Positions 88 through 21,736 of a stretch of DNA of 64,000 nucleotides are shown piece by piece. The notes under the pieces are model-generated. The model had not been told where the DNA came from, did not search any database, and worked only from the letters and a program-made list of their open reading frames with translations. The translations under genes were made by a program, and so were the position numbers. The DNA is from Candidatus Altimarinota bacterium (GTDB lineage: Bacteria; Patescibacteriota; Gracilibacteria; Absconditabacterales; Absconditicoccaceae): the NCBI GenBank assembly GCA_021734475.1, contig JAIPIU010000002.1:145592-209591 (forward strand), read 5' to 3'. How positions within the stretch are numbered: position 1 is the first letter of the stretch; every line of letters begins with the position of its first letter.

Positions 88-3000
88 ATGTTTGGAACAA
101 TTTTTTTCTTTGTATTATTGGGAAGCTTGATTCCTTTGATTATCAAGAGTATAAAAGCTATCAAGATTTATAGCTATAATGATAATCGTTATAATAGGAA
201 TGAACATAAACCATATCCTTCCAATTGGACATCGGTTATCGTTCTTCCAATAGCTGTAATCATTTCGTGGATACTTTTTAGTGTCTATGTAAATTATGCT
301 ACTAAATTTTGGTGGTATCAAGAAGTAGGAAGGACGGATGTTTTTTGGACTCTTTTGATTCCAAAGATAAAAATCTTTTTTGCTTCATTTATAATTCTAC
401 TTGTATCTTTCTATTTATTTACAAAGTTACAATACAAAAGTTTGTTTGGAAATAGATGGTCTCTCGCCATCAATCTCCCAATTTCTTTTGTTGTTTCTCT
501 TGGTTTTGGTCTTTGGATTGCTAGCGAATGGCAGAACATATTGATGTATCAAAACCAGTCTCTTATGGGATTACTAGATCCTTTATTTAATAAGGATGCC
601 AGTTACTATTTGTTTTCATTAAATTTATACGATGACTTTCTTTTTATTGCTAAAACTTTAGTCATTTGTGCATTATTGTATTCTTTGATAGTTTTTATTG
701 TAAAAGCTGTTAGAGAAGAAATGAATTTTGCAGAATTTATGAAAACAATTCCACGTTCAGTTTGGATTTTTATAGCACTATGGTGTGGTATACATTTATT
801 TGATAGACAAATTTCGATTTATCAATTGATGTATTCAGATCACGGTTTATTCTCAGGTGTAAATTATGTAGGTCAAAATGTAGATATACCTATCTTTCAC
901 ACAGAACAAATCGTTTTTGCTTTGATTGGTATTATTGCTCTTTGTATTCCTTTTTTCAAAAAAGCCGAAGGACTATTCAAATTCTTATCAATCGTTACAA
1001 TTATAGTAATGTTTGGTGGATTAATCCTTCCGCTATTTATAGCTACATTCAATATTGTATGGCTTATTATTGTTTTGCTTATTGCAATTGTAATATCTAT
1101 ATATTTATTTTTGTGGGGAAGAAAAATGGATAGGGAAATTCTTGTATTGGTTAATATACTGATTACAATTATTTTTGTTCAGTTTATTGCAAATGAAGGA
1201 ATAATTCCTGCTAGTATTCAAGCTGTATATGTTTCTCCAAAAGAAAAACAGGTTGAGGCTCCTTATATCAAAAATAATATTGAATTTACCAAACAGGCAT
1301 TTTGTTTAACTGACGAATATTTGGTAGAAAAATCTATTGATTATTCAGAAAAATTAACAAAAGAAATGCTGATTTCCAACCAACAAACAATTGATAATAT
1401 CAGGATTTTGGATCATGAAGCTACTATCCAAGTGCTAGATAACTCTCAAACAGAAACTCAGTACTATCATTTCAATGATGTGGATGTCGACAGATATCCC
1501 AATACTGATGGAACTAGCAATATGTATTTTGTTGGAGCTAGAGAAATGAACCAAGATGGTTTACAGTCCAAAACTTATTACAATACTAAGTACGTCTATG
1601 GACATGGATATGGATATATCAAAGCTCGAGGTAATACTTATGATATCACTAGTGGTTATCCGATATTAGAAGTAAAAGGAATGCCAATCAGAAATGGTGA
1701 GCCAAGAGTTTATTATCAAGAAGGAGATATTCCAGAGTTTTTCTATGTCAATTCCAATCAAAATGAAATAGATTATCCGGTAGAAAAAGGTGAAATAGAA
1801 TATGCTTACACAGGCAAGGGAGGAATCTCTATAAACACAGCTTGGAAGAAATTCTGTTTTGCAAAAAAATATGATTGGAGATTGTTTTTTGGTGGAGCCC
1901 CTGTAAATGATTCTACCAAAATAATGTTAAACAGAAATGTTTCAGAAAGAGTAAAAAAGATTTGTCCATTTATTACTTGGTCATCTGACGCTCTTTTCGT
2001 TATTCGCCCTGATGGTACAGCCGCTTGGATTGTAGATGGATTTTCGATAAGCGAACATTTTCCATATTCATCAGACTTTGATCCTGGTAAATGGGGTTAT
2101 TCTTTTGGTAAATTTAACTATATTCGCCATTCTGTAAAAGCTGTTGTTGATGCTTTTGATGGGACTGTTGAATTCTTTACTGTAAATGAAAAAAACGATC
2201 CTATTATCGGAACGATTGAAAATATCTTTCCTGATATGTTCAAACCTTTGTCAGAAATGCCAAAGGATTTACAACAACATCTGATTTACCCAATATTTTA
2301 TTTCAAAGCTCAGTCATACATGTACTTAAAATATCACATGGATGATCCCTATGAGTTTTATCAGCAAGATAAAATTTGGCGGGTAGCTAATGAAAATTAT
2401 AAAGGGGAAAAAACAATGATGGAGCCACGTTATATGCTTCTAAAACTCCCAAATGAAAACAAAGAAAAATTTGTGATTACTATTCCATTTACTCCCAAAG
2501 AGTTGAGTGAAAACCAAACCAGAGACTTTTTAACTGGTTGGGTTGCTGGAGAATGTGATCCAGAAAACTTCCTAAAATTAAATGTTTTCATGTATCCAAA
2601 AGGTAAAGAGATTTTTGGGCCGTGGATGATAGAAAACGCCACTAATACAGAATCTCAGATTAGTAAATCATTTACTCTTTGGGGACAGGGAGGAAGTAAT
2701 GTTTGGCAAGGTAATCTAATGTTGGTGCCAATAGACAATACAATTATAGCTATTGAACCAGTGATAGTACTTGCTCAAGCAAATGACGGTAAACAACAGT
2801 TGCCAAGTATTAAGATGATAATTGCTTTTCACAACAAACATCTTGCTTGGGGACGTACGACTGAAGAAGCTCTTTATAATCTTCTTCAGGGTTACAAACC
2901 ACAAGAAGCTGAATCATTTACAGGATCTGTAAAATCGATTTATGATCAATATGAAGTTACAATACCAATCATTGATAAACAGGGTAATGTCTCTTCAAAA

Positions 3001-3117
3001 ACGATCTCAGCTTCATCTCAACAAGAAGCTCTCAAAGAAATGCAAAAAGCTATCCTCAAATTCGAGGAAGGTTTAAAAATTCTCAAAGGAGCTATGCAAA
3101 CATTATCTCAGAAATAA
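88..3117 (+). CDS. UPF0182 family large membrane protein
   Basis: A 1009-residue protein that resembles the UPF0182 (COG1615) family, whose biochemical role is unknown. About seven hydrophobic segments fill roughly the first 370 residues, including a WWYQEVGRTDVFW stretch typical of the family. A large, mostly soluble region rich in aromatic and charged residues follows and probably lies outside the membrane. It ends with TAA and a strong terminator, so it looks monocistronic. The odd feature is glycine coding: all of its roughly 65-70 glycines are GGN and none is UGA, although neighbouring genes use UGA for most glycines. This suggests acquisition from a standard-code donor, or selection to avoid UGA. 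The family assignment comes from recognised sequence pattern and length. Confidence 0.85.
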   Translation: MFGTIFFFVLLGSLIPLIIKSIKAIKIYSYNDNRYNRNEHKPYPSNWTSVIVLPIAVIISWILFSVYVNYATKFWWYQEVGRTDVFWTLLIPKIKIFFASFIILLVSFYLFTKLQYKSLFGNRWSLAINLPISFVVSLGFGLWIASEWQNILMYQNQSLMGLLDPLFNKDASYYLFSLNLYDDFLFIAKTLVICALLYSLIVFIVKAVREEMNFAEFMKTIPRSVWIFIALWCGIHLFDRQISIYQLMYSDHGLFSGVNYVGQNVDIPIFHTEQIVFALIGIIALCIPFFKKAEGLFKFLSIVTIIVMFGGLILPLFIATFNIVWLIIVLLIAIVISIYLFLWGRKMDREILVLVNILITIIFVQFIANEGIIPASIQAVYVSPKEKQVEAPYIKNNIEFTKQAFCLTDEYLVEKSIDYSEKLTKEMLISNQQTIDNIRILDHEATIQVLDNSQTETQYYHFNDVDVDRYPNTDGTSNMYFVGAREMNQDGLQSKTYYNTKYVYGHGYGYIKARGNTYDITSGYPILEVKGMPIRNGEPRVYYQEGDIPEFFYVNSNQNEIDYPVEKGEIEYAYTGKGGISINTAWKKFCFAKKYDWRLFFGGAPVNDSTKIMLNRNVSERVKKICPFITWSSDALFVIRPDGTAAWIVDGFSISEHFPYSSDFDPGKWGYSFGKFNYIRHSVKAVVDAFDGTVEFFTVNEKNDPIIGTIENIFPDMFKPLSEMPKDLQQHLIYPIFYFKAQSYMYLKYHMDDPYEFYQQDKIWRVANENYKGEKTMMEPRYMLLKLPNENKEKFVITIPFTPKELSENQTRDFLTGWVAGECDPENFLKLNVFMYPKGKEIFGPWMIENATNTESQISKSFTLWGQGGSNVWQGNLMLVPIDNTIIAIEPVIVLAQANDGKQQLPSIKMIIAFHNKHLAWGRTTEEALYNLLQGYKPQEAESFTGSVKSIYDQYEVTIPIIDKQGNVSSKTISASSQQEALKEMQKAILKFEEGLKILKGAMQTLSQK

Positions 3118-4805: not shown

Positions 4806-5680
4806 GCAGCTATAGCTGGAGTATCTTCTCAAATTACTGGAGCTTTTTCTTCAGGCTTAGAATTTATTTTTACTTTGGGAGCTCATTTAACTATTTTCAT
4901 TCATCATTTTTTATCTTCTTTAGCTTCCAAGACTTCAGCTAATTGTTCAGATATTTTGGCCATATGTTCTTCCATTTTACTTATTCTTTCTTTCAAATCC
5001 AATACTTCCTTATCATCTTTCTTCTCTTCTGGCTTATCTTTTTTATCATCAATTTTATCTTCTTTTGGAGCTTCTTTCTTTTTGTCTTTTGATTCATCTT
5101 TAGCTTTATCATCTTTTTTCTCTTCTGGCTTATCTTTTTTTTCTGATGCAGAAGATCATTTTTTTAATTCTTTGAAACCTTCTCCATAAGAACCTCGCCA
5201 TTTTTTCATATTAGTTTTAAATCATTTATCTCATTTCCAAAGTTTTACTCTATTTTCTTTTTTCAAAAATAAATTTCCACCCCATGTAAATGGAGTAGCT
5301 GCAGCTCTTCGAGAAAAATCCAAAGCTGTTCATAATCCATATTTGGCTCATCAGTAGACAGCGTGAGTAGGTCGAGTTGTAAGTTTTGATAATCCATAAG
5401 CTTCACCTCGATTACCTTCGTATGGAGCCCAAAATCTTTTCCATCCAGCTTTGTTATCAGCCTTATAGTTTTTTCGTCAATCACCAAGTCTTGTTCAATA
5501 TTTTTTATAAGTATCTTTTGCAAAAGGATCTCTCAGAGCATCCATCAAAAGTCTTCAGGTATCAGCGACTACGCCAGCACTAGTTTTGGCTGTGTTTAGT
5601 CCAAATCACACTACTCCAAGAGGTGAAAGTGCAGCTTGAGTAGCTCATCATACAATTTTAGAAGGTATACTTAGTCCCAT
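4802..5680 (-). CDS. Hypothetical protein with Lys/Glu/Asp-rich C-terminus
   Basis: A 292-residue ORF under code 25. The first 180 residues are Gly/Ala- and Trp/Arg-containing with short weakly hydrophobic stretches (for example near residues 10-35). Residues about 180-240 hold a low-complexity segment with a nearly repeated unit (KKDKPEEKKDD occurs twice). A probable coiled coil follows (ERISKMEEHMAKISEQLAEV). I do not recognise the family. The charged repeat and coiled coil suggest a structural or scaffold role, which is inference. It is convergent with the TPR gene and divergent from the large gene at 5850. Confidence 0.75.
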
Positions 5681-5775
5681 TTTTAATATTAATTTTAAAA
5701 ATTAATTTAATATATTATAACAAAATAAAATAAAATGTCAAATAAAAAGATATTAATAAAAAAGCTTGGCAAAAT

Positions 5776-5804
5776 TTGACAAAAATCTGATTTTTATGTA
5801 AAAT
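5776..5804 (+). promoter_or_regulatory. Sigma70-type promoter of the 5850 operon
   Basis: TTGACA at 5776-5781 and TAAAAT at 5799-5804 with a 17-base spacer. The sequence just downstream (TTAACTTTGTATTTTA) closely resembles that after the promoter of the 38018 gene, which supports a real shared element. Confidence 0.7.
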
Positions 5805-5849
5805 TAACTTTGTATTTTAAATATTCAGATTTATCTATTATAAAACAAA

Positions 5850-8800
5850 ATGGTTAATTCTTCAAATTCAAGTTTTAATAGTCTTTGGGAAAAAAGTATC
5901 AAAACTGCTGAGGTAAATAAAACCTTTTCCAAAAAGATGGTTGATGCTCTACAGACAGATTACAACAAACTTTCCTCAAAAGAGAAAGAACTTTTATCTC
6001 AAGAGCTCAATGATAGAATCAAATTTCGAGAAGAAAAACAGAAGGTTCTGGAAGATAAAAATGCTAGTGAAGATCAAATAAATAAGTGCAAAGAAAGTAT
6101 CAAAAGATACCAAAGAATATATTCTGATCTAGAGAAAGCTCCACTTACTGATTCTCCAGAAAATGAATGAGAAGAAAAATCTGAAAAAGAAACAAAAAAA
6201 GTAGAAGCAAAAGAATCATCAGAAAAAATAAACAAAGAATTATTTGTAAATAGAGATACATTAGCAGAAGATATAGCCATCAATAGATACAAAAACTGAT
6301 TAGATTCAATCAATGATTGATTTCCTAGTGGAGAAATTACACTTAGAGATGGTAAGAAAATCAAAATAGATGAACACAAAGATTATGAATTTTTCAAGTC
6401 TGAATATAAAAAAGCAATATCAATAAATGATCAAGAAACGATGAAAAAACTTGATACGCAATTTGCTGAGAGATTAATTTTGGAGAATCCTACCACAGAC
6501 GATATTACAAAAAGATATTATATACAAATAAACAATGATATATCATGAAAAAATAATAAAACAGAAAAAGAATTAGAAGAAGAGGCAATTAGATGTGTAG
6601 AAGGTCTTACAAAAATATGATACAATGTAGAATATATTAAATACAAAGAATGAAATGAATATGAAAATCTAGATGAAAATACGGTCAAAGAACGAGATGT
6701 CGACCTAATCAAAACCAATAGTAAATATAGAGAAAAACTAAAAGCAAGACTAGCTAATCTAAAGATTGGAGAAACAATTACTCTTATTAAGTGAGGTCAA
6801 ACAGCAATACTTCAAAAATATGATGAAAATGGATGGATAGCTAAGCATTGTCAAATAGATGAAATCTCAAAACTTATAGATAAAGATCATTATGTGGAAT
6901 TTGATGGAAATAAAAGCTATATAAGCTATGTATTAAACCAAGATTTATTCTGATTTATAGATGATTGAATACAAGATAAAGAAGAAAAAATATATCATAT
7001 AGTTAGACAAAAAGAAAAAGAAATAATACCAGACCCAGATCCAGAATACAAAGATTTAGATCTAAGCGCAGTAATATCAGATATGTGAACAGACGTACAT
7101 AGAGAAAGAATTTCTCTAGAGACAGAAGAAGAGCTCAAAGATTATTATAAATGATTAGCCCGATGGCGTTTAGATAAGAGAGCTTATTTGTTCTTATCTA
7201 GATGAGCAAAAAGAAAAAGAATGATCAAAGAATGAATGGATAAATTATCCGGTAAAGCATTCTCTGGTGATGATTCATTGGACGATAAAACAATAAATGC
7301 TGCAGATCGTCATGAATTGGAACTATTAAATAAATTGGAGGATATAGACAAAGCGAATGCTACAGTTATCAAAAATGTAGATGTAGATAATCTATGTAAA
7401 GATTTTCTATTATGATCAGTCAATGAAGATAACTTCAAAACAAAATTTAATGAAATAATAGATGCAGACGCTAATATACAAAATGTTTTGAAATGAAAAA
7501 AGATATCACATATATGAACAAATATTCTAGAAAAACTAAAAATTCAGAAAGCCAATGTAGATCTAATGAATACAGTAAATTCTGAATTTAATGCCTACGT
7601 TTGAGATTCAAACAATATACATATAGATAATATAAACAAAGCTATAGAAGATTATATAAATAAATTTCAAAAGACTCCTGAATTTATGGCAGATTATCAA
7701 GATTTTTTGAACAATACTCCATGATCAAAAGAGAAATTGGAAAAATATCTAAAGCATCAAAAGGCAATTATGAAGATGCAAATTACAAATTTAAAAGTAA
7801 ATCTAGATGTTCTTACATGATGAAAATCAGCCTATCAAATTGACAACAAAGATCGTCAGAAATGATTTTGATATAAGATATGAAAAGCTTTAGATAAACT
7901 TCCACGATGGGCTCAGACAGCATGATTTGTATGAATATCTATAGGTACATGATTGCTAACATGATGACTTGGAACAGTTGCGGCAGCAGCAATTACTACA
8001 TGAGTCTCAGCTTGATCTATAGGATGACTTAATGCTCTCAAAAAACGAACTCACTATACCAAAGAACAAAACACTCACGAAAAAAATATTGTTACAGATA
8101 ATAAAGCAGAAAAAGAAAAAATAGCTGAACTTCAAAACTTAGCAACGACAGGTAAACGATATCAACGAAAAACTTATAAAGCAAAGAGACAACTAAAATT
8201 ATATAATGAAGCTACTCAACAAGATTTTCAAATTACAGATACTGTTACACAAAATATTATGGCTGAAGCTTCTAAACTTAATTGAATGGATAATGCTAAA
8301 CTTGAAGAAAGTTTAATTCAATGATTAGCTCGTTTGGATTATTATAGAGAGACATGACATAACTTCCTAGCATCAGAAGATAAAGAAAAAATAGAATCAG
8401 ATTTCAATAAGTTAGAAAAAGCGATTATTCTTTGATTACAGAGATTATGAACAGATCTAGACACCTTCCGTCAAAAACCAGAATGTACGACATTAAAAGA
8501 CACATTGAAAGAAGACTATGATAAATCATTCAAAAATTTCAAAAAAGAAAGAAGAATATTAGCGGCTAAATACTGAGTATCTACAGCTGCATTATCAGCA
8601 TGAATGTCTGTGGGTATGCAACGAATTACATGATCATGATTATTTTCTGACAAAGCAGTAGATTGAGTTGCTGCTACAAATTTTACAAATAATAGTACAG
8701 ATTCATTTGATTTATGAAAAGCCGAATTATTGGATACAGCTACTAGAAATGATTTATATAATACATGAACAAATATCTTAAAAGATCCTAGTGTAATAGA

Positions 8801-10718
8801 TTGATCTAATATTACTATCAATTACGGTGCATGAACAGATGCTACGGCGGTAATACCATGAAGACTTACAGAAGCTGTATATCAATCTAAAATAGATAAT
8901 GTAATAACTAATATAAATGCATTAAATCTTGATTCCGCAACCAAAGATGCTTTGATAGATCATGTTAAATCTCAACCACGACAATCTTCTCGAGATACAA
9001 GTAATTTTATGAATGATTATCTACACGGTATGAGATGTGCAGAAGCCGTAGAACAAGTTGCCAAATCAGTAGCAGATTCTGGTAGAGACAATATTACACT
9101 CAATCTAAATTATGATAGTACTATGGATATTGTATGACAGTCTATGAAAGAAGCATCAGAGAGAGTGGTAAATGCAAACTTTGTTGTAGATACTCCAGAG
9201 ATAGCATGAGTAACGGAAAGATCACGATGAAGATTCTTACAATTCCCGGTATTCTTCAACACATTCAAAGATAATGTTGAGTTAAAACAAGAAAAAAAAC
9301 CTGAAGATGAAAAAGATAAACCAATAGATGATTGACAAAACGATTGAGAAAAACCAGATGAAGATAAGGAAATAGATGTAGATGATATAGATGACTATAA
9401 ACCAAAACCTACAGACCCAACAGAAGATCCAGAATGATTCTATGGAGATGATCTATGACCTAGCAAAGATCTAGATTGAAAAAAAAGTATTATAACTAGA
9501 TGACAAAAAATAGATAAAATAGATAAATCTGATTATGGAAAAGAATATCCATGAACATGAAAACTCCAATCAGAAAAAGAAACCGCATTTGATATTCTTA
9601 TGAGAAAAAAGAAACTAACTCCAGAAGATAAATCTATAATACAAAAACTACAGGCAGAATGAAAAAATCATAACGATATTATGACATACCTAGAAAATAA
9701 AGTAAAGAAACAGAGACTTCAAGCAAAAGAAAAAGCTGAATCTCCAAAGCGAGCTTTTAATCAAATATTAGAAGAATGTTATGCTAATATTCCAAAATAT
9801 TTGGAAAAGATTTTGTGACCAGATGTGGCATCTAAGTTTAATAAACTTCCAGATGCTAATAGAATCCATTTGGTATGAGAATATGATTATTTGAGTATAG
9901 CATGATCTTGATCTAGTGGTGTTTTTAGAACACAGGCATGAGATATATATGTATCACAATCAGCTGTAGAACAATTTGAAAATGCAGGCGATATTTGACA
10001 AATTGAGAGAGACGGAAAAACAGTTCGTTTCCCTAGAATATATCGAGAAATTAAACATATACTTACTCATGAAATGCTTCATAGTATGAGTGTACTAAAT
10101 TATAGTGATTTCAATAAATGAGAATCAAATAATGCTAACTTGATATCCACTAGACGTCTATGATTTATGAATATAAATAACAATAAAAAAACTTTGAGGG
10201 GTCGTGGTATAAATGAATGAACTACAGAATCTTTAGCTCAATCTATATTAGCTATGCGATACAAAGATGAATGACTAAATGATTATGCTCCAGCATGGAT
10301 AGCTTATCAAAAAGAACAAAAAATAATGGACAAGATAATCCAAACAGACTGAGATAATATAGATCTAAAAGATTTCTATAAAGTAATGTTGATTAGAAAA
10401 TATTGAGATGAATGAGAAATTCAAGAAGCTACTCCATTACTAGAGCTTATGAGAAAAATGAATTGATGAAAAGAAATAGCAAGTTCACCTAGACCATATT
10501 ATTATCAACTTATTATGAGTTTATCAGATTATGTAAATGAAGGTAATGTTGGTAATATTCAATTTATAATTGATTTTATAGAGAAAAAAGATATTTCAAT
10601 CATCAAACGTAATATATGATCCAATTTAGATGCGGTATTTGATAAATCACTATTAAATGATGCCAAGACAGATTTCAATGAAGAAATATTAAAAAAATAT
10701 GAACCATTAATCGGATAA
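5850..10718 (+). CDS. Giant protein with C-terminal gluzincin-like HExxH/NExxTE motif
   Basis: A 1622-residue ORF with many in-frame UGA codons read as glycine. Residues 1-110 are coiled-coil-like and charged. A Gly/Ala-rich hydrophobic hairpin near residues 690-730 (TGLLTGGLGTVAAA) looks membrane-inserted, and a second weaker hydrophobic stretch lies near 905-930. An acidic linker rich in Asp, Lys and Pro lies near 1150-1220. The C-terminal part carries HEMLH at 1407-1411 and NEGTTE at 1455-1460, the spacing and order of zinc ligands in gluzincin metallopeptidases. There is no N-terminal signal peptide. The family is not recognised as a whole; the peptidase call rests on the two motifs. It is followed after 28 bases by the small acidic gene, probably in one transcript. 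Confidence 0.8.
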
Positions 10719-14037: not shown

Positions 14038-15249
14038 ATGCTCAAAGTGCCTTTTTATACGCTGACAAACTATAGTGATATAATAGCCAAAACATATGAG
14101 CAAAATGATAAGTCTGATTGGTTTTTGTTATCAGATTTTTTTGATATTTTAAATGTTGAATTTGTATCCAATTATGCTAGCTTAGATGCTAGAAAATTAT
14201 CAGAATATTTCGCCAACAAAACTCTCAATCAAGTAATCCCATTTGGCTGAACAAATAAAAAATTCCAAGATGTGATCATAGCTATCAAATTACTTGTTCC
14301 CACTATGCGAGCATGTGACTATTTTCTTCGAAATTGTAAAAAAAACACTCATGGATGATTGGATCTTATCATGCCTCGTTGAACACCTATTCATAGTTTT
14401 TCAGATGGAGTAGTCACTAGAATCAAGCAGCGAGATGGTGTCAAAAAAGATGAATGAAATTGTGTGGTAATCCAGACTTGAGACAAACGATACTCATACA
14501 AACATATGGATACAATCAATGTAAAATATTGAGACCAAATCAAAAGATGAGATCAAATTTGAACGTGTGGTTCTACATGACAATCTACTCAGTATCATTT
14601 ACATTTTCAAATAGATGCTCCTGTGTCGCCATTCACACCATACCGAAGCACACAGCTAAATAGTGTTTTGAAAAACACTCTAGATCCATTACCTTTTTTG
14701 AGAGATATATTTCGATATAGCAAAATATTCCTTGATATGCCTTTGAATACAGATTACAAAAAATCTATAGAAGCTCTGTATTACCAAGGTATAGTAAAAT
14801 GATCCAATCAAAAAGTTTTTCCAGATAATAAATTGCCTAGACGACAAGCAGCATTAGTCTTTGATAGAATATGCAAAAAATACAATCTATATTCTCAGAT
14901 ACCAGTAGTCAATCCAACATTTACTCCATATTCAGATTTGAATAATCCAGATCCAGAACTTACGGAATCTGTAAAAAATCTTCAGAAATATTGAATAATG
15001 GTTTGAAAAGATTGACAATTTTTTCCAGACAAAGAAATTCTAGGAGAAGAATGGATCGCTATATTGGGTAGAATGCTGTTCAATCTCAAAGATCAACACA
15101 ACTGAATGCGATACAAACCCTATGTAACATATTTTGAAAGCAATGCTCTCACAGAAAAAAACCGAAAATATTTGGGTAAATCTATTCTTAGAAAAGACTC
15201 ATTCTTGGTACTCTACAAGTCACTAAAAAGAAAAAATTTATTAAATTAA
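14038..15249 (+). CDS. M23 family peptidoglycan endopeptidase with SLH-like repeats
   Basis: A 403-residue protein. Residues about 100-200 form an M23/LytM metallopeptidase domain: H105xxxD109 (HGGLD), a YKHMD segment and HLHF at 187-190 supply the zinc ligands that cleave peptidoglycan cross-bridges. Residues about 225-350 contain two S-layer-homology-like repeats (FLDMP...IEALYYQGIVKGSNQKVFPD, and a second GIMVGKDGQFFPD), which usually tether proteins to cell-wall polymers. No clear signal peptide is visible; the N-terminal 100 residues are a separate unknown domain. Seven bases separate it from the following glycosyltransferase gene, so the two are probably an operon. Confidence 0.85.
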
Positions 15250-15255
15250 ATCTTT

Positions 15256-16401
15256 ATGAATAAAATCTGATTTTTGTTTTATGGTAGGTTGGAAGTCGAA
15301 AAATGATTCGATAGTATTTTGCAGATGATAGAAATATTTGGAAATAATAATCAGGATTTACCATTTGATTTATATATTTTTGGGAAATGAAAACTTGAAT
15401 CAGATCTAATCAAACTCACACACAAATACAATTCTATACATTTTTTTGGTCGACAGACACTAGACTATATCAAACAATATTTGCCCAAAGTACAATACTT
15501 ACTCATGCCTTCTAGCTTCCTAGAAACGTTTTGATTGTCGGCTCTCAATTCACTTTCGCGATGACTACCAGTCATATGATTTGCCAAATGATGATTGGCT
15601 CAGTTTATTCTACCAGCATTTGATCTGACAAACACAAACTGATTTGATACGGCATGGAAATTACACAATATGATAAACAAATTAGTACAAAATCCCCCCA
15701 AGCTAAATCCCAAAACTTTCCAAGAAATATCAGATCAATATAGCAAAGAAATCTGGTTCCAAAATTTCAAAAAGATATTCTGATCTTGAAAAAAAATACT
15801 TATGCTGAGCGATTTCAAAAGCAAAATATGATGAATAGAGACATATATTTATGATGTCAAAGATTTATTAGAATCCAAATGATATGAGATTCAGGTTTTG
15901 TGATGTGAGCTTTCGAGTAATAGATTTGCGAAATTTTTTAAATATCTATGAATCTTATTGGCATTAGTAAATATCTCTAATTATTTCAAAATCCAAAAAG
16001 CTATCAAAGAATTTAATCCTGATATACTACGATATCACAGTACTCTGAGATGGATATGACGACTGTGAATATCTGCTTCCAAAAAATTTAAATGAAAAAA
16101 AATAGTGATGTATCATGATTTTGGATACTTTTATCCATTTCCACACTCACTTCATTTTGTAGATCAGATCAAAACCCCTCTGACTTTGATAAACTATATC
16201 AAATCTGCCAAGACTAATAATCCTATCAAAATATTAGCAATATCATTTAAATATTTATCAGTATCTTTGATCAAAAAATCTCTCAAAAAATATATGGATA
16301 AACATCTCAGTCCATCAGAATTTATGCTAGATATAATTTCCAATTCCTACCAATTAACCAAGAAAAAAATAAAGGCTTTCCCTCATTTTATTCAAGAATA
16401 A
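15256..16401 (+). CDS. GT4-like glycosyltransferase with circularly permuted domains
   Basis: A 381-residue protein. Residues 1-165 match the C-terminal, nucleotide-sugar-binding half of GT4 enzymes: FLFYGRLEVEKGFD at the start, then IHFFGRQ and SSFLETFGLSALNSLSRGLPVI. Residues about 180-381 match the N-terminal acceptor half: KKILMLSDFKSKIGGIETYIYD, ending at FPHFIQE where a normal enzyme would enter the interdomain linker. The usual order is therefore reversed. In the EX7E motif the second Glu appears to be Asn. One continuous ORF encodes it, with many UGA glycines. It probably adds sugars to an envelope glycan. It follows the M23 gene directly. Confidence 0.85.
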
Positions 16402-16421: not shown

Positions 16422-16499
16422 TGTCATTGCGAGCGAAGCGCGGCAATCTTAAAATAAATGAAAAAAGATTGCTTCGTCGTTAAACTCCTCGCAATGACA
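16422..16499. repeat. Palindromic element of the CATTGCGAG type
   Basis: Twelve-base perfect inverted ends TGTCATTGCGAG (16422-16433) and CTCGCAATGACA (16488-16499), with internal GCAATCTT/AAGATTGC pairing. It lies between the convergent glycosyltransferase gene and the gene at 16507 and could act as a transcription terminator for both. Confidence 0.9.
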
Positions 16500-16827: not shown

Positions 16828-19800
16828 TTAAATATTTCATAATCTAACTTTTGATCTATCTATATCTTTTGAACTTAATCATAGAGTATGTCATTGTAAT
16901 CATTTCCTAGATAAACGTTTCTCCAAATCCCTAAGTTTTTTATTTAAATAAATATCTTCATTTCTATAGTCACGTTTCTTTTCATCTCTAAGTTTTCTCT
17001 CTTCTGGAGATAATTTTCTTATTTCTGCAGCTTCTGCCAATTCTGATTCTTCTTCAGTTAAAAAAGAAGAAGAAAAATTTTCCACTATTTTTATATATTC
17101 ATTCCAAGGAGCTAAATAATAAGGTCTATTAAAATCTTCTAGATATTGTTTTCCAAAAAAAGATTCTATAAAATTATTGTCAAATTTATCTATATTATCC
17201 AAAAATAGATTATAAAATCATTCCAAAGCTCATTTAAATTGAGTCGGAGGAGAACTTCTCTCATTTTCTACTATCTCTCAAACAGTAGAATATCGCATTA
17301 TATTATCTAAATCTTTTTTTGTTAAATCTCATCATTCTTGTTTAATTTTTCATCATGCTAATTTTGACTGATACCATTTTATAGTAGATATTCTTCTAAC
17401 AAAATCTGATTTTCCATTTTCATCAAAAGTTCTGTCAAATCGATTTAAAAATACTTTTGCTATAGATTCAAACTGTTCAGATGAAGATAATTTTCATTTT
17501 GGTATTTGTTTACTTACAGAATTCCGAAAATCTTCAGCAGCTTGAATTTGATCTACCTCTCATGTAAATCAACCATTGTCATACTTCATCATTTCACGTT
17601 GAACAAATCATTTAGTTTGAGTTAATGGAGAATCTGTAATTATCTTGGAATTAGTATTTACATCTTTGTCAGTTCATTCTACTTGATTTTCTATAGATAG
17701 AGCTTTTAGTTCATTCATAATAGGATCTTTAGATATATTTTTTCCATTAAAATCTTCCATAACTGGTAGTTTTCTCAAAAAACTTTCAATATTAGTTCAA
17801 TTTGTATATCGCCATTTTTCAAAATTTCATAAAAATTTTTTATATTCAATTTCCTCACTTTTTTCCGAAAAACTATTCGAATTATATTTTAATTTATCGT
17901 TTTTTCAAAATTCTCAATTACTTATATAATCCAACATATATGCTATTTTTTCTTTTTGTTCATATCTAGTTATCCATAGTCATGGACTAAATCACATAGA
18001 TCTACATATTGATTCTAGCCATCATTTAGTATCTTTATCTGCAAAATGTAAAAAAAATCCATTAAGCATGCTACCGATTATGCACATTTTCAATAAACTA
18101 ATTTGCTGTGGTGATTTTGCTAGAGTTGCCATTCTTTTTAGGAATGCTAGTGCATGTTGAGATCTTCCTGAACCAGAAAATCTTTTAAATTCATTATAAC
18201 AGAAAGTAAAATTCGTTACTTGTTTTAGTCAATTAAATCTATCTTCAATTTTTGATTGAGAAATTCGTTCATTATATTTTCAATCAAGTTCTCAAGCAAA
18301 TTTATCTGATCGCATTCTTTTGGGATTATCATCTCATCAATCTTCTCAAAGTATTTGACCAAAACGCTGTCACGTAGCTCTTCCTCATATATTATTTACC
18401 AGATAAGTCATTTCAGCTCTTACCAAATCATTTACCATTGGTCAATCATAACCAGATCAATATATTCCTTTTTTAGATTCAATTTCTCTAATGAGTTCTT
18501 GCTGATGAGCTAAAAATCTTTGTTGATGTTCTTCTCATAAAAGTAATTTTACCCAAGCTCATTTTAATCTAAGTTGTTGAATTCCACGATATGGAGATCA
18601 ATTTTTAATAAGCGCCAATAAAGTGGCTGGAGCTATATAACGATCTTGAGGTAATTTGCCGTCTATTATCATTTCTTTTAGATTTAATCATCACAAGTAT
18701 GGTCTCAAAAATCAATCTAAATCAAAACTTTGACCAAAATCTGGATCGGCTTCGAATATTTTCAATCGTTTCTCTGTTTTTTTCCATACTTTAGCATCTC
18801 TTTCATTTCGATATTCCAATTCTATAGTTTGAAAAGCATCACCAGCTCATGGTATAAAACTCATTAATCCAGCCATTTTTTTGTATATTCATACATCACT
18901 AACCAAAAACTCATTGAACATATCCTGTCTCTCTTTGCTATAATTTTTGAGTGCATCATCAACTTTTTTACCTACTCATTTAAATACTTCCAATATTTGT
19001 TTGATACCAAAAAATTTCCATTCCTTTCTTCATTTATGTTTGTTCCATGCAGCTTCATCATGGTTTTTGACTTTGTCATCAGCATTTTTTTGAGTACTTG
19101 GTTTTAGATTTTTGGTGGATACAAATATCATAAAGTTATTATAATCCATTTTGCGTTTATAATTTCCCAATTCTACGGTAAATGTATTATCAGAATTATG
19201 AGATACTTTGTAATATATTGGAACTATTTCTTCTTTTCATTTATCATCATATTCTCTAGAGTCCATTCATCGATGAGTTATTTCTTCTTCATTTCCTTTA
19301 TCATCTTTCAATAAATTAGACATAAATTTTCATTTTTCTCGTCTTACCTCACCAAAAATTCCAGATCAACTTATACCAAGATTTCAATCTCCAAAAGCTC
19401 CAAATGCTTTATCCCAGTTTTTGGGATCGGGTAATTTATAAATATCTCCATTAAAAGCATTACTAATTTTATCTAGTGATTCTTTGGTTTTGGGATAAAC
19501 TATTTTTTTCCCTTCTAAATTTCCTGCAGCCAATTCTCATCATTCCAACTCCACAGTGAAATTTGTATTTGTTATATTTATTATTTTCAATTGTATCCAC
19601 TGATCTCATCATACATCCATAGGAGGTAGCTCTGTTTCAAATCATGTTTTGATCCATATTCTAGTTCAGATTTCAAATCATTTTCATATTTCTTTTCAGT
19701 CAAAAATTTCTCATTTACTATTTGGGAATTGATATCATTTTATATTATCTCGACTTTCTAAAAATTTTTGTTTTTCTGTTTTTTCTTTAGTTTCTAGTCA

Positions 19801-21396
19801 AATTCACTTTTCTTTATTTTCTTCACTATCTTGACTCTCTTTGCTTTCACCTTCTCAGCCTTTCTTATCTTTATCATCTGTCATTCCGGCAGCCTGCCCC
19901 GCAGCACCGCGTGGGTCAAGTTTTGCGGCCGGAATCTTATCATCAAATACTTCCTTGAGTTTATCTACATTGTCTTTGTTCATAGATCTATTATCAAAAG
20001 AATTTTGAGCCAATACATACAACAAAAATAATTTTCCAATATTGTCTCAATTTAGATTTATACTTTTCCCATCTTCAGAAATTTCATTAGCAAAGACTTG
20101 TTTGATAGCAGCGTTTTTCAATAGATCATTATTTTCTTCCAATACTTTTATATCCAATTCCAATGGAATCTTTGCATCAGCAAAATTAGACATATCTATA
20201 AAATTTGGATTTACTCATCCTTTTAATTTCTTATTTACTCCTAATCTAATATCTCACTGAGCTGTATCAATCACTATTTCATTTTGATTCAAATCAAAAA
20301 TATTTTTTGCAAAATATTCAAAATCTGATTGATCTACTCAGATCAAATTGCTTAGATTATTTACTTTCAATTCCTCCAATCTAGCAGATATATTTTCTCT
20401 TAAAAATTCATTTTGATCTTCTTTACTTAGTTTTCCAAAATCAAATTTATTTTGAAATAATTTGGACAATAGATCTCATAAATTTTTATTTTTCTTTTGT
20501 ACCATATCTATGTACGCATAGAAACTAAGTTTATCAAATTCTTCTTTGTTTCAATTCTCTTGAGCTTCATCTAGTTTTTTTCTTATTTCATCATCAATTT
20601 CATTTTGCTTCCACGGATATTTTTTTGTTATCCATCACATATTTGGAACAAAATCATTGAATGTATTTTTCAATAATCCAAAATTTTTCTCCAAAAACGC
20701 TAGACTAGATTTCATCCCATCTAGATATTCTTGTGTGATTAGTTTATCGAATTTTTTACTCACCCCAGTATTCCAATTTTTGAAATTTCAATCTACATCA
20801 TTAGCTCATATTTTCCCATCTTTCATCAATCCATCTACTATATCTTTGTTTTCTATCCTTATATCTTTTATTTCTTTTTCAAGATATTCGTCTATCTTTT
20901 TTCATCCATCACCATAATCAACAAAATTCCAAAGCTGATTTTTAAATTCATTCAGAGTTTTGGTATTATTCATTTCTCTATCCAAGCTAGACTTCAAATT
21001 ACTTGGCACCTTATCCTTTATCCTTTCAACTAATTTATTTATAACTACTTTTTCCATATCTTTTCATAGTTCTCACATACTACTACTGTTTAAAACATTA
21101 TGCAAAGTAATAGCAGAAGTGTGTCTATCATCACCAATAATTTGATCTATACCAAAACCGTCATCTTTGATCATATCAAATGTCACTGTTCAATTTTTAC
21201 TTATTTCTTCCAATAATCAAAAATCTGATTCTATTCTATAATATTCCAAAAATTCTTTCAAGATCTGAATATTATCTTTTCACTGATTTTGGGGTTTATT
21301 TTTCAAAGTATCCAATATAGTCAAAATCATACTAGAAACTTGAGAATTTCTAGCTCATCATTTTTTACCATTAGGAGTCTTTTTGGGTGTATTCAT
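16828..21396 (-). CDS. Giant hypothetical protein (1522 residues)
   Basis: One continuous ORF under code 25 with dozens of UGA glycines. The N-terminal half is helical and charged, with no signal peptide. Residues about 487-505 come from a palindromic repeat inserted in frame (19880-19936). An Asp/Lys/Glu/Ser-rich linker follows near 505-530. The middle has Gly- and beta-rich sequence (about 540-760) with segments like GIFGEVRREKGKF, and the C-terminal third is Lys/Glu-rich with Trp and Tyr. MAGLMSFIPGAGDAFQ near residue 850 is the only mildly hydrophobic hairpin. I do not recognise the family. Size and overall style resemble the proteins at 5850 and 38018, but I could not demonstrate homology. 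The gene is preceded by a plausible promoter at 21456-21484. Confidence 0.75.
19880..19936. repeat. Palindromic element inside the 1522-residue gene
   Basis: GTCATTCCGG at 19880-19889 and GGCCGGAATC near 19927-19936 bracket a GC-rich core. It reads in frame on the minus strand as roughly 19 residues (IPAAKLDPRGAAGQAAGM). The composition contrasts sharply with the AT-rich flanking coding sequence, so it marks an insertion into the gene. Confidence 0.8.
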
Positions 21397-21630: not shown

Positions 21631-21713
21631 GTCATCGCGATACCGCAGTACTGCGGTAGTGGCGATCTTAAGATTGTTTATCCACGAAGGTGGGCTTCGT
21701 TCCTCGCAATGAC
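21631..21713. repeat. Palindromic element upstream of topA
   Basis: The ends GTCATCGCGA and TCGCAATGAC are inverted repeats with one mismatch. Inside is a perfect 18-base palindrome, TACCGCAGTACTGCGGTA (21641-21658). The whole 21397-21736 gap holds this element and the promoter of the minus-strand gene; nothing coding is visible. Confidence 0.8.
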
Positions 21714-21736
21714 ATTTTAGTACTTTAAATCTTGTT

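Follow-up and report, generated by a model that had tools for sequence, protein, structure and literature searches.

Our analysis indicates that the gene studied here very probably encodes a genuine and, by prediction, functional glycosyltransferase of the GT4 type in circularly permuted form, one that would act in surface-glycan transfer and would have arisen through gene fission and re-fusion. The permuted GT4 had been proposed by a sequence-only reading of the window, by which we mean the whole stretch of 64,000 nucleotides that was analysed. It is now supported by profile searches, by a two-domain structural model, by homologues with the same order in 63 genomes, and by an order-normalised tree in which the family stands next to canonical GT4 enzymes.

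Domain order and active site

In ordinary GT4 enzymes the domain PF13439 precedes PF00534, and it is for this reason that we call the order in the window protein reversed. Pfam places both the donor domain PF00534 (Glycos_transf_1, residues 5-147, E=2e-15) and the acceptor domain PF13439 (Glyco_transf_4, residues 191-379, E=6.5e-11) within this protein, each above its curated cut-off and the C-domain ahead of the N-domain, the opposite of the N-then-C order of CAZy family GT4. Only GT4 domains were matched; Pfam gave no match to the MurG-type domain Glyco_tran_28. The source organism reads TGA as glycine, many of its long ORFs being open under table 25 alone, and among the relatives recovered through homology one is on record as Candidatus Absconditabacteria. 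Under table 25 the ORF coincides exactly with 15256..16401 (+), begins with ATG and runs for 381 amino acids with no internal stop, 19 TGA codons being read as Gly. Under the standard code (table 11) it is broken, and that translation was rejected. The Pfam order and the table 25 ORF thus confirm that a nucleotide-sugar half comes first and an acceptor half second in one uninterrupted frame.

The breakpoints, too, lie where they had been proposed, at the interdomain linker and the protein ends. Only a few residues stand ahead of strand 1 of the C-domain at the N-terminus, and the protein closes with PHFIQE, which used to be the interdomain linker; the equivalent stretch of the canonical sibling L043 continues by way of the linker between the domains (VLPNFIDSKH...NFVFFGRL) to the C-domain. 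With the start codons of homologues picked by proximity, the Arg of the GR motif falls at residue 9-16 in 39 of the 40 permuted proteins. The new linker is short in nearly all homologues, a few residues in most, while about 40 residues of low complexity separate the halves in the close relatives L053 and L054 (genomes G039 and G044).

The alignment of the 40 permuted proteins, whose identity to the window protein goes down to 23%, has 24 invariant positions spread over both halves: R11, E15, K16, G17, G43, G45, G65, P85, S86, E90, F92, G93, G112, G113 and F117 in the first, and D186, G193, G216, R265, G268, H287, P294, P353 and S354 in the second. R11, K16 and H287, at the positions of the GT4 C-domain Arg and Lys and N-domain His, are present in 40 of 40. 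We take R11 and K16 to be the donor-diphosphate Arg and Lys of PimA-type enzymes, expected to bind the donor diphosphate, and E90 to be the first Glu of the E-x7-E motif of the same enzymes; H287 is presumably the equivalent of the GT4 active-site His in the N-domain. The second Glu of that motif is replaced in the window protein by N98, so that full activity is not to be assumed; over the 40 proteins this position holds N in 19, T in 8, E in 7, D in 5 and I in 1. As read from the sequence, the protein is GT4-like in its domains and active-site residues, and since two textbook features of GT4 fail (the order and a strict E-x7-E) we regard it as a permuted variant that is related to GT4.

Table 1. 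Permuted gene, its parts and its upstream neighbour in the window
Feature	Position	Strand	Remarks
Upstream neighbour, M23 peptidase with SLH domain	14038..15249	+	
Permuted GT4 gene	15256..16401	+	381 aa, code 25 (TGA=Gly), ATG start, TAA stop
First half, GT-B C-terminal (nucleotide-sugar) Rossmann domain	15256..15780	+	residues 1-175; PF00534 5-147
New inter-domain linker Gly-Ser-Gly	15781..15789	+	residues 176-178; from last helix of C-domain to strand 1 of N-domain
Second half, GT4 N-terminal (acceptor) Rossmann domain	15790..16398	+	residues 179-381; PF13439 191-379
R11 and K16 of GRLEVEKG	15286..15303	+	invariant, 40 homologues
E-x7-E position, E90 and N98	15523..15549	+	E90 invariant, 40 homologues
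G192-G193 of KIGGIETY, glycine loop after strand 1 of N-domain	15829..15834	+	
H287 (YHDFGY)	16114..16116	+	invariant, 40 homologues

Predicted fold

An AlphaFold model of the window protein, computed from an alignment of 40 proteins, is confident (mean pLDDT 92.6, pTM 0.88) and shows both Rossmann domains complete. The check by structure prediction that had been suggested therefore came out in favour of the permutation: the model supports a predicted GT-B packing of two domains, and unpaired domains were not seen. The normal-order sibling L043, from genome G021, served as a control (pLDDT 89.2, pTM 0.87); once the halves are rotated, the succession of strands and helices is identical in the two models except for one insertion in L043. 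In Foldseek comparisons with the PDB the window-protein model aligned with canonical GT4 structures over about one half (TMq about 0.35), a full-length match failing because the halves stand in reversed order. The L043 model matched glycogen synthase, BshA, PimB', PimA and MshA over its full length (430-490 alignment columns, mostly TM about 0.6). The PDB sequence search matched little beyond the C-half, most hits being receptor constructs with Pyrococcus glycogen synthase fused in, and the search of a viral structure library returned nothing of note.

How could a GT-B enzyme tolerate such a rearrangement? In our proposal the donor-binding C-domain would be translated first, and its terminal helix would pass, by way of the short linker, to strand 1 in the N-domain that binds the acceptor, while the usual interdomain hinge peptide would be cut and would supply the new N- and C-termini. 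In enzymes of GT-B fold the helix at the C-terminus returns across to the N-domain, which brings the old ends close together. Such a cut and join would, as the model supports, preserve the two-domain cleft.

Distribution among genomes

The reversed order occurs as a single ORF in 63 genomes, each from a different species of very small, uncultured bacterium: 41 belong to the window's own family, f1, 21 to f22 and 1 to f23, the last two being further families whose members came from a class-wide search with the N-half profile. The search of 99 genomes found f1 homologues collinear with the entire query in most of the family, and three single-contig genomes (G007, G011 and G027) carry the reversed order. 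Within f1 there is at most one strong N-half copy per genome, and ordinary N-C GT4 genes lie elsewhere in the same genomes. Phage records gave two weak C-half matches. We also note apparent frameshifts in the GT genes of G032 and G126 (L018 and L120) and an in-frame TAG in that of G103 (L140), either sequencing errors or young pseudogenes.

These data bear on two ways in which the gene might be less than it seems. An assembly error could have fused two genes, and the sequences are indeed mostly metagenome-derived, but the identical order recurs in the 63 independent species genomes, single-contig ones among them. It is therefore due neither to chance nor to misassembly, and the search for same-order homologues has refuted assembly error for practical purposes, leaving it a negligible probability. 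Nor is the protein at all likely to be a degenerate, catalytically dead relic, a reading that could draw on the Asn at the second Glu of E-x7-E, on the frameshifted relative L018 and on the in-frame TAG of L140; against it, R11, K16, E90 and H287 never vary among the 40 proteins, even at 23% identity, and a copy of the gene is kept in 45 of 49 f1 genomes.

How the order changed

Some relatives arrange the same halves differently. In G021 (L043, 431-1666, minus strand) they follow N-C order in one ORF, the N-half matching the family profile at E=1e-53 and the C-half falling among the permuted C-halves. In G006 (L039) a C-half gene (5410-6327) and an N-half gene (6341-6967) lie adjacent in C-then-N order, separated by a TAA stop and a fresh ATG at 6341. 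In G012 the halves are on separate contigs (L041 and L040), the N-half being without a clear ATG, and in G017 an N-half was found and a C-half was not. The G017 bin (L042; C104, C20) mixes TGA-recoded and standard-code contigs and is therefore probably contaminated. Some members have extra sequence inserted midway through the C-domain, at roughly one position: about 100 amino acids in G006 (L039:5410-6327), and less in the f22 genus g78 (L119-L124) and in G021 (L043). Canonical N-C relatives exist elsewhere in the phylum, namely L142 and L143 of family f14 and L151-L160, L165 and L169 of other classes; both halves are in one ORF in L151 (N 3e-24, C 9e-24) and in L142 (N 4e-22, C 1.5e-24). L142, L151 and L043 thus carry both homologous halves in N-C order, and circular permutation is the fitting term for the window protein.

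In the order-normalised tree of the two halves the family (f1, f22, f23 and G021) joins canonical L151 and L142/L143 with support of 94-100, its inner nodes being weak. In the C-half tree the permuted, split and G021 C-halves stand apart from other GT4s with support of 99. A species tree from rpoB/C (FastTree) gives G012, G021, G006 and G017 a basal position in f1, with support of 0.04 at one key node; an earlier unrooted tree places G006, G021 and G017 elsewhere. At least one change of order must have taken place within this one family, since it contains both fused orders as well as split genes. We claim no direction for this change, since AU tests (2000 replicates, and thus rough) rejected none of three alternative histories: G021 forced outside (p = 0.35), all permuted forms as one clade (p = 0.15), or f1 and f22 each as one clade (p = 0.28).

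The most likely route is fission of a canonical GT4 into two genes, followed by re-fusion in reverse order. The sequence-only reading had instead invoked a tandem duplication of a canonical gene with loss of the outer halves, leaving C-N. Duplication is a standard model of permutation (PMC3320104), the new protein ends do lie at the old interdomain linker, and tandem pairs exist, canonical GT4 genes adjoining for example at G000 C3 138532-140663. Among about 70 family members, however, tandem or partly truncated intermediates were not found, whereas free-standing halves are present in G006 and G012. Fission and re-fusion therefore fit better, and duplication, for which we see no specific support, appears rather unlikely. 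A chimera of two unrelated GT4 halves that mimics a permutation is less probable still: the C-half is generic enough to match other GT4s at E about 1e-25, but the nearest canonical relatives (L151 and L142) have both matching halves in one ORF, and the placement of the family in the combined tree and the separation of its C-halves both speak against unrelated halves. For fission and re-fusion a more specific history can be put forward tentatively, though we would not call it probable: in one orthologous family the halves would have existed as separate genes and been joined again either way round, with the reversed order in almost the whole of f1 and f22 and N-C restored in G021. If true, this would be a natural fission/fusion series for an enzyme fold with all its intermediates still alive. 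The free-standing halves could also be a late breakdown of the permuted gene.

Relation to known enzymes

Few enzyme families are as large as GT4, whose annotation assumes a single domain order; order-dependent structure and profile searches catch only half of a permuted protein. The window protein shares with canonical members (PimA, PimB', BshA, MshA and PglA) the pair PF13439 and PF00534, the positions of the Arg, the Lys, the first Glu and the His, and a GT-B-like model; it differs from them in the order of its halves and, like most members of its family, in the replaced second Glu of E-x7-E.

General searches of the open-licence literature found no report of a permuted GT4 or GT-B enzyme. 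The earlier statement that no GT4 of this order is known thus stands, but GT-B fusions of reversed order are known in another family (PMC8993221). Entamoeba histolytica and Dictyostelium discoideum offer the closest precedent with their reversed Alg13-Alg14 fusion; according to the same paper, this gene was split and repeatedly re-fused, with reversed order in Amoebozoa (PMC8993221). Like the window protein the fusion is a GT-B enzyme whose single chain begins with the donor half and continues with the acceptor half, and its order came about by gene splitting and later re-fusion, the route that we infer for the permuted GT4. However, Alg13-Alg14 is MurG-like and eukaryotic, with split genes as the usual state, whereas the present enzymes are GT4-type and bacterial, with the reversed fusion usual in whole families. 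Among the general models of permutation, which include fission and fusion, the nicotinamide nucleotide transhydrogenases are similar in that separate subunits were fused in different orders (PMC3320104), although they are unrelated, three-part membrane enzymes.

The permuted form suggests that nature can do without the hinge peptide between the two domains of a GT-B enzyme, and it opens the mechanics of donor-induced domain closure to direct testing. Permuted, split and normal-order members within one family provide a rare bacterial series for studying the origin of circular permutations, as well as natural templates for work in which glycosyltransferase domains are split and recombined.

Probable role and gene surroundings

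No functional family of NCBIfam reached its cut-off for the permuted GT. We consider a retaining transferase in surface-glycan assembly its likely function; it would take the sugar of a nucleotide diphosphate donor and attach it, with retention, to a glycan that is lipid-linked or at the surface, and our best guess is a lipid-linked surface-glycan transferase acting at the inner face of the membrane. The published genome of Vampirococcus (Absconditabacteria) is described as that of an organism with an elaborate cell surface and several glycosyltransferases (PMC8080830). In f22 an O-antigen-ligase-like gene (Wzy_C domain, cluster c2) lies at the GT locus in 15 genomes, usually just upstream (L136:5091-6443 and 14 other f22 loci), and often FtsW is found further upstream, before it. 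In f1 the permuted gene is not part of a glycan operon and has housekeeping neighbours such as trmD. An operon with the M23 peptidase gene upstream was considered and rejected, this neighbour not being conserved even within the genus.

The window holds other features that we record in passing. Directly after the GT gene lies an inverted repeat starting TGTCATTGCGAGCGAAGCG (16422-16499), of whose long form none is expected by chance, and an extra copy of its core is found at 21703-21714. Two giant ORFs, at 5850-10718 (+) and 16828-21396 (-), encode 1622 and 1522 amino acids with no Pfam match, and a UPF0182 membrane protein of 1009 amino acids is encoded at 88-3117.
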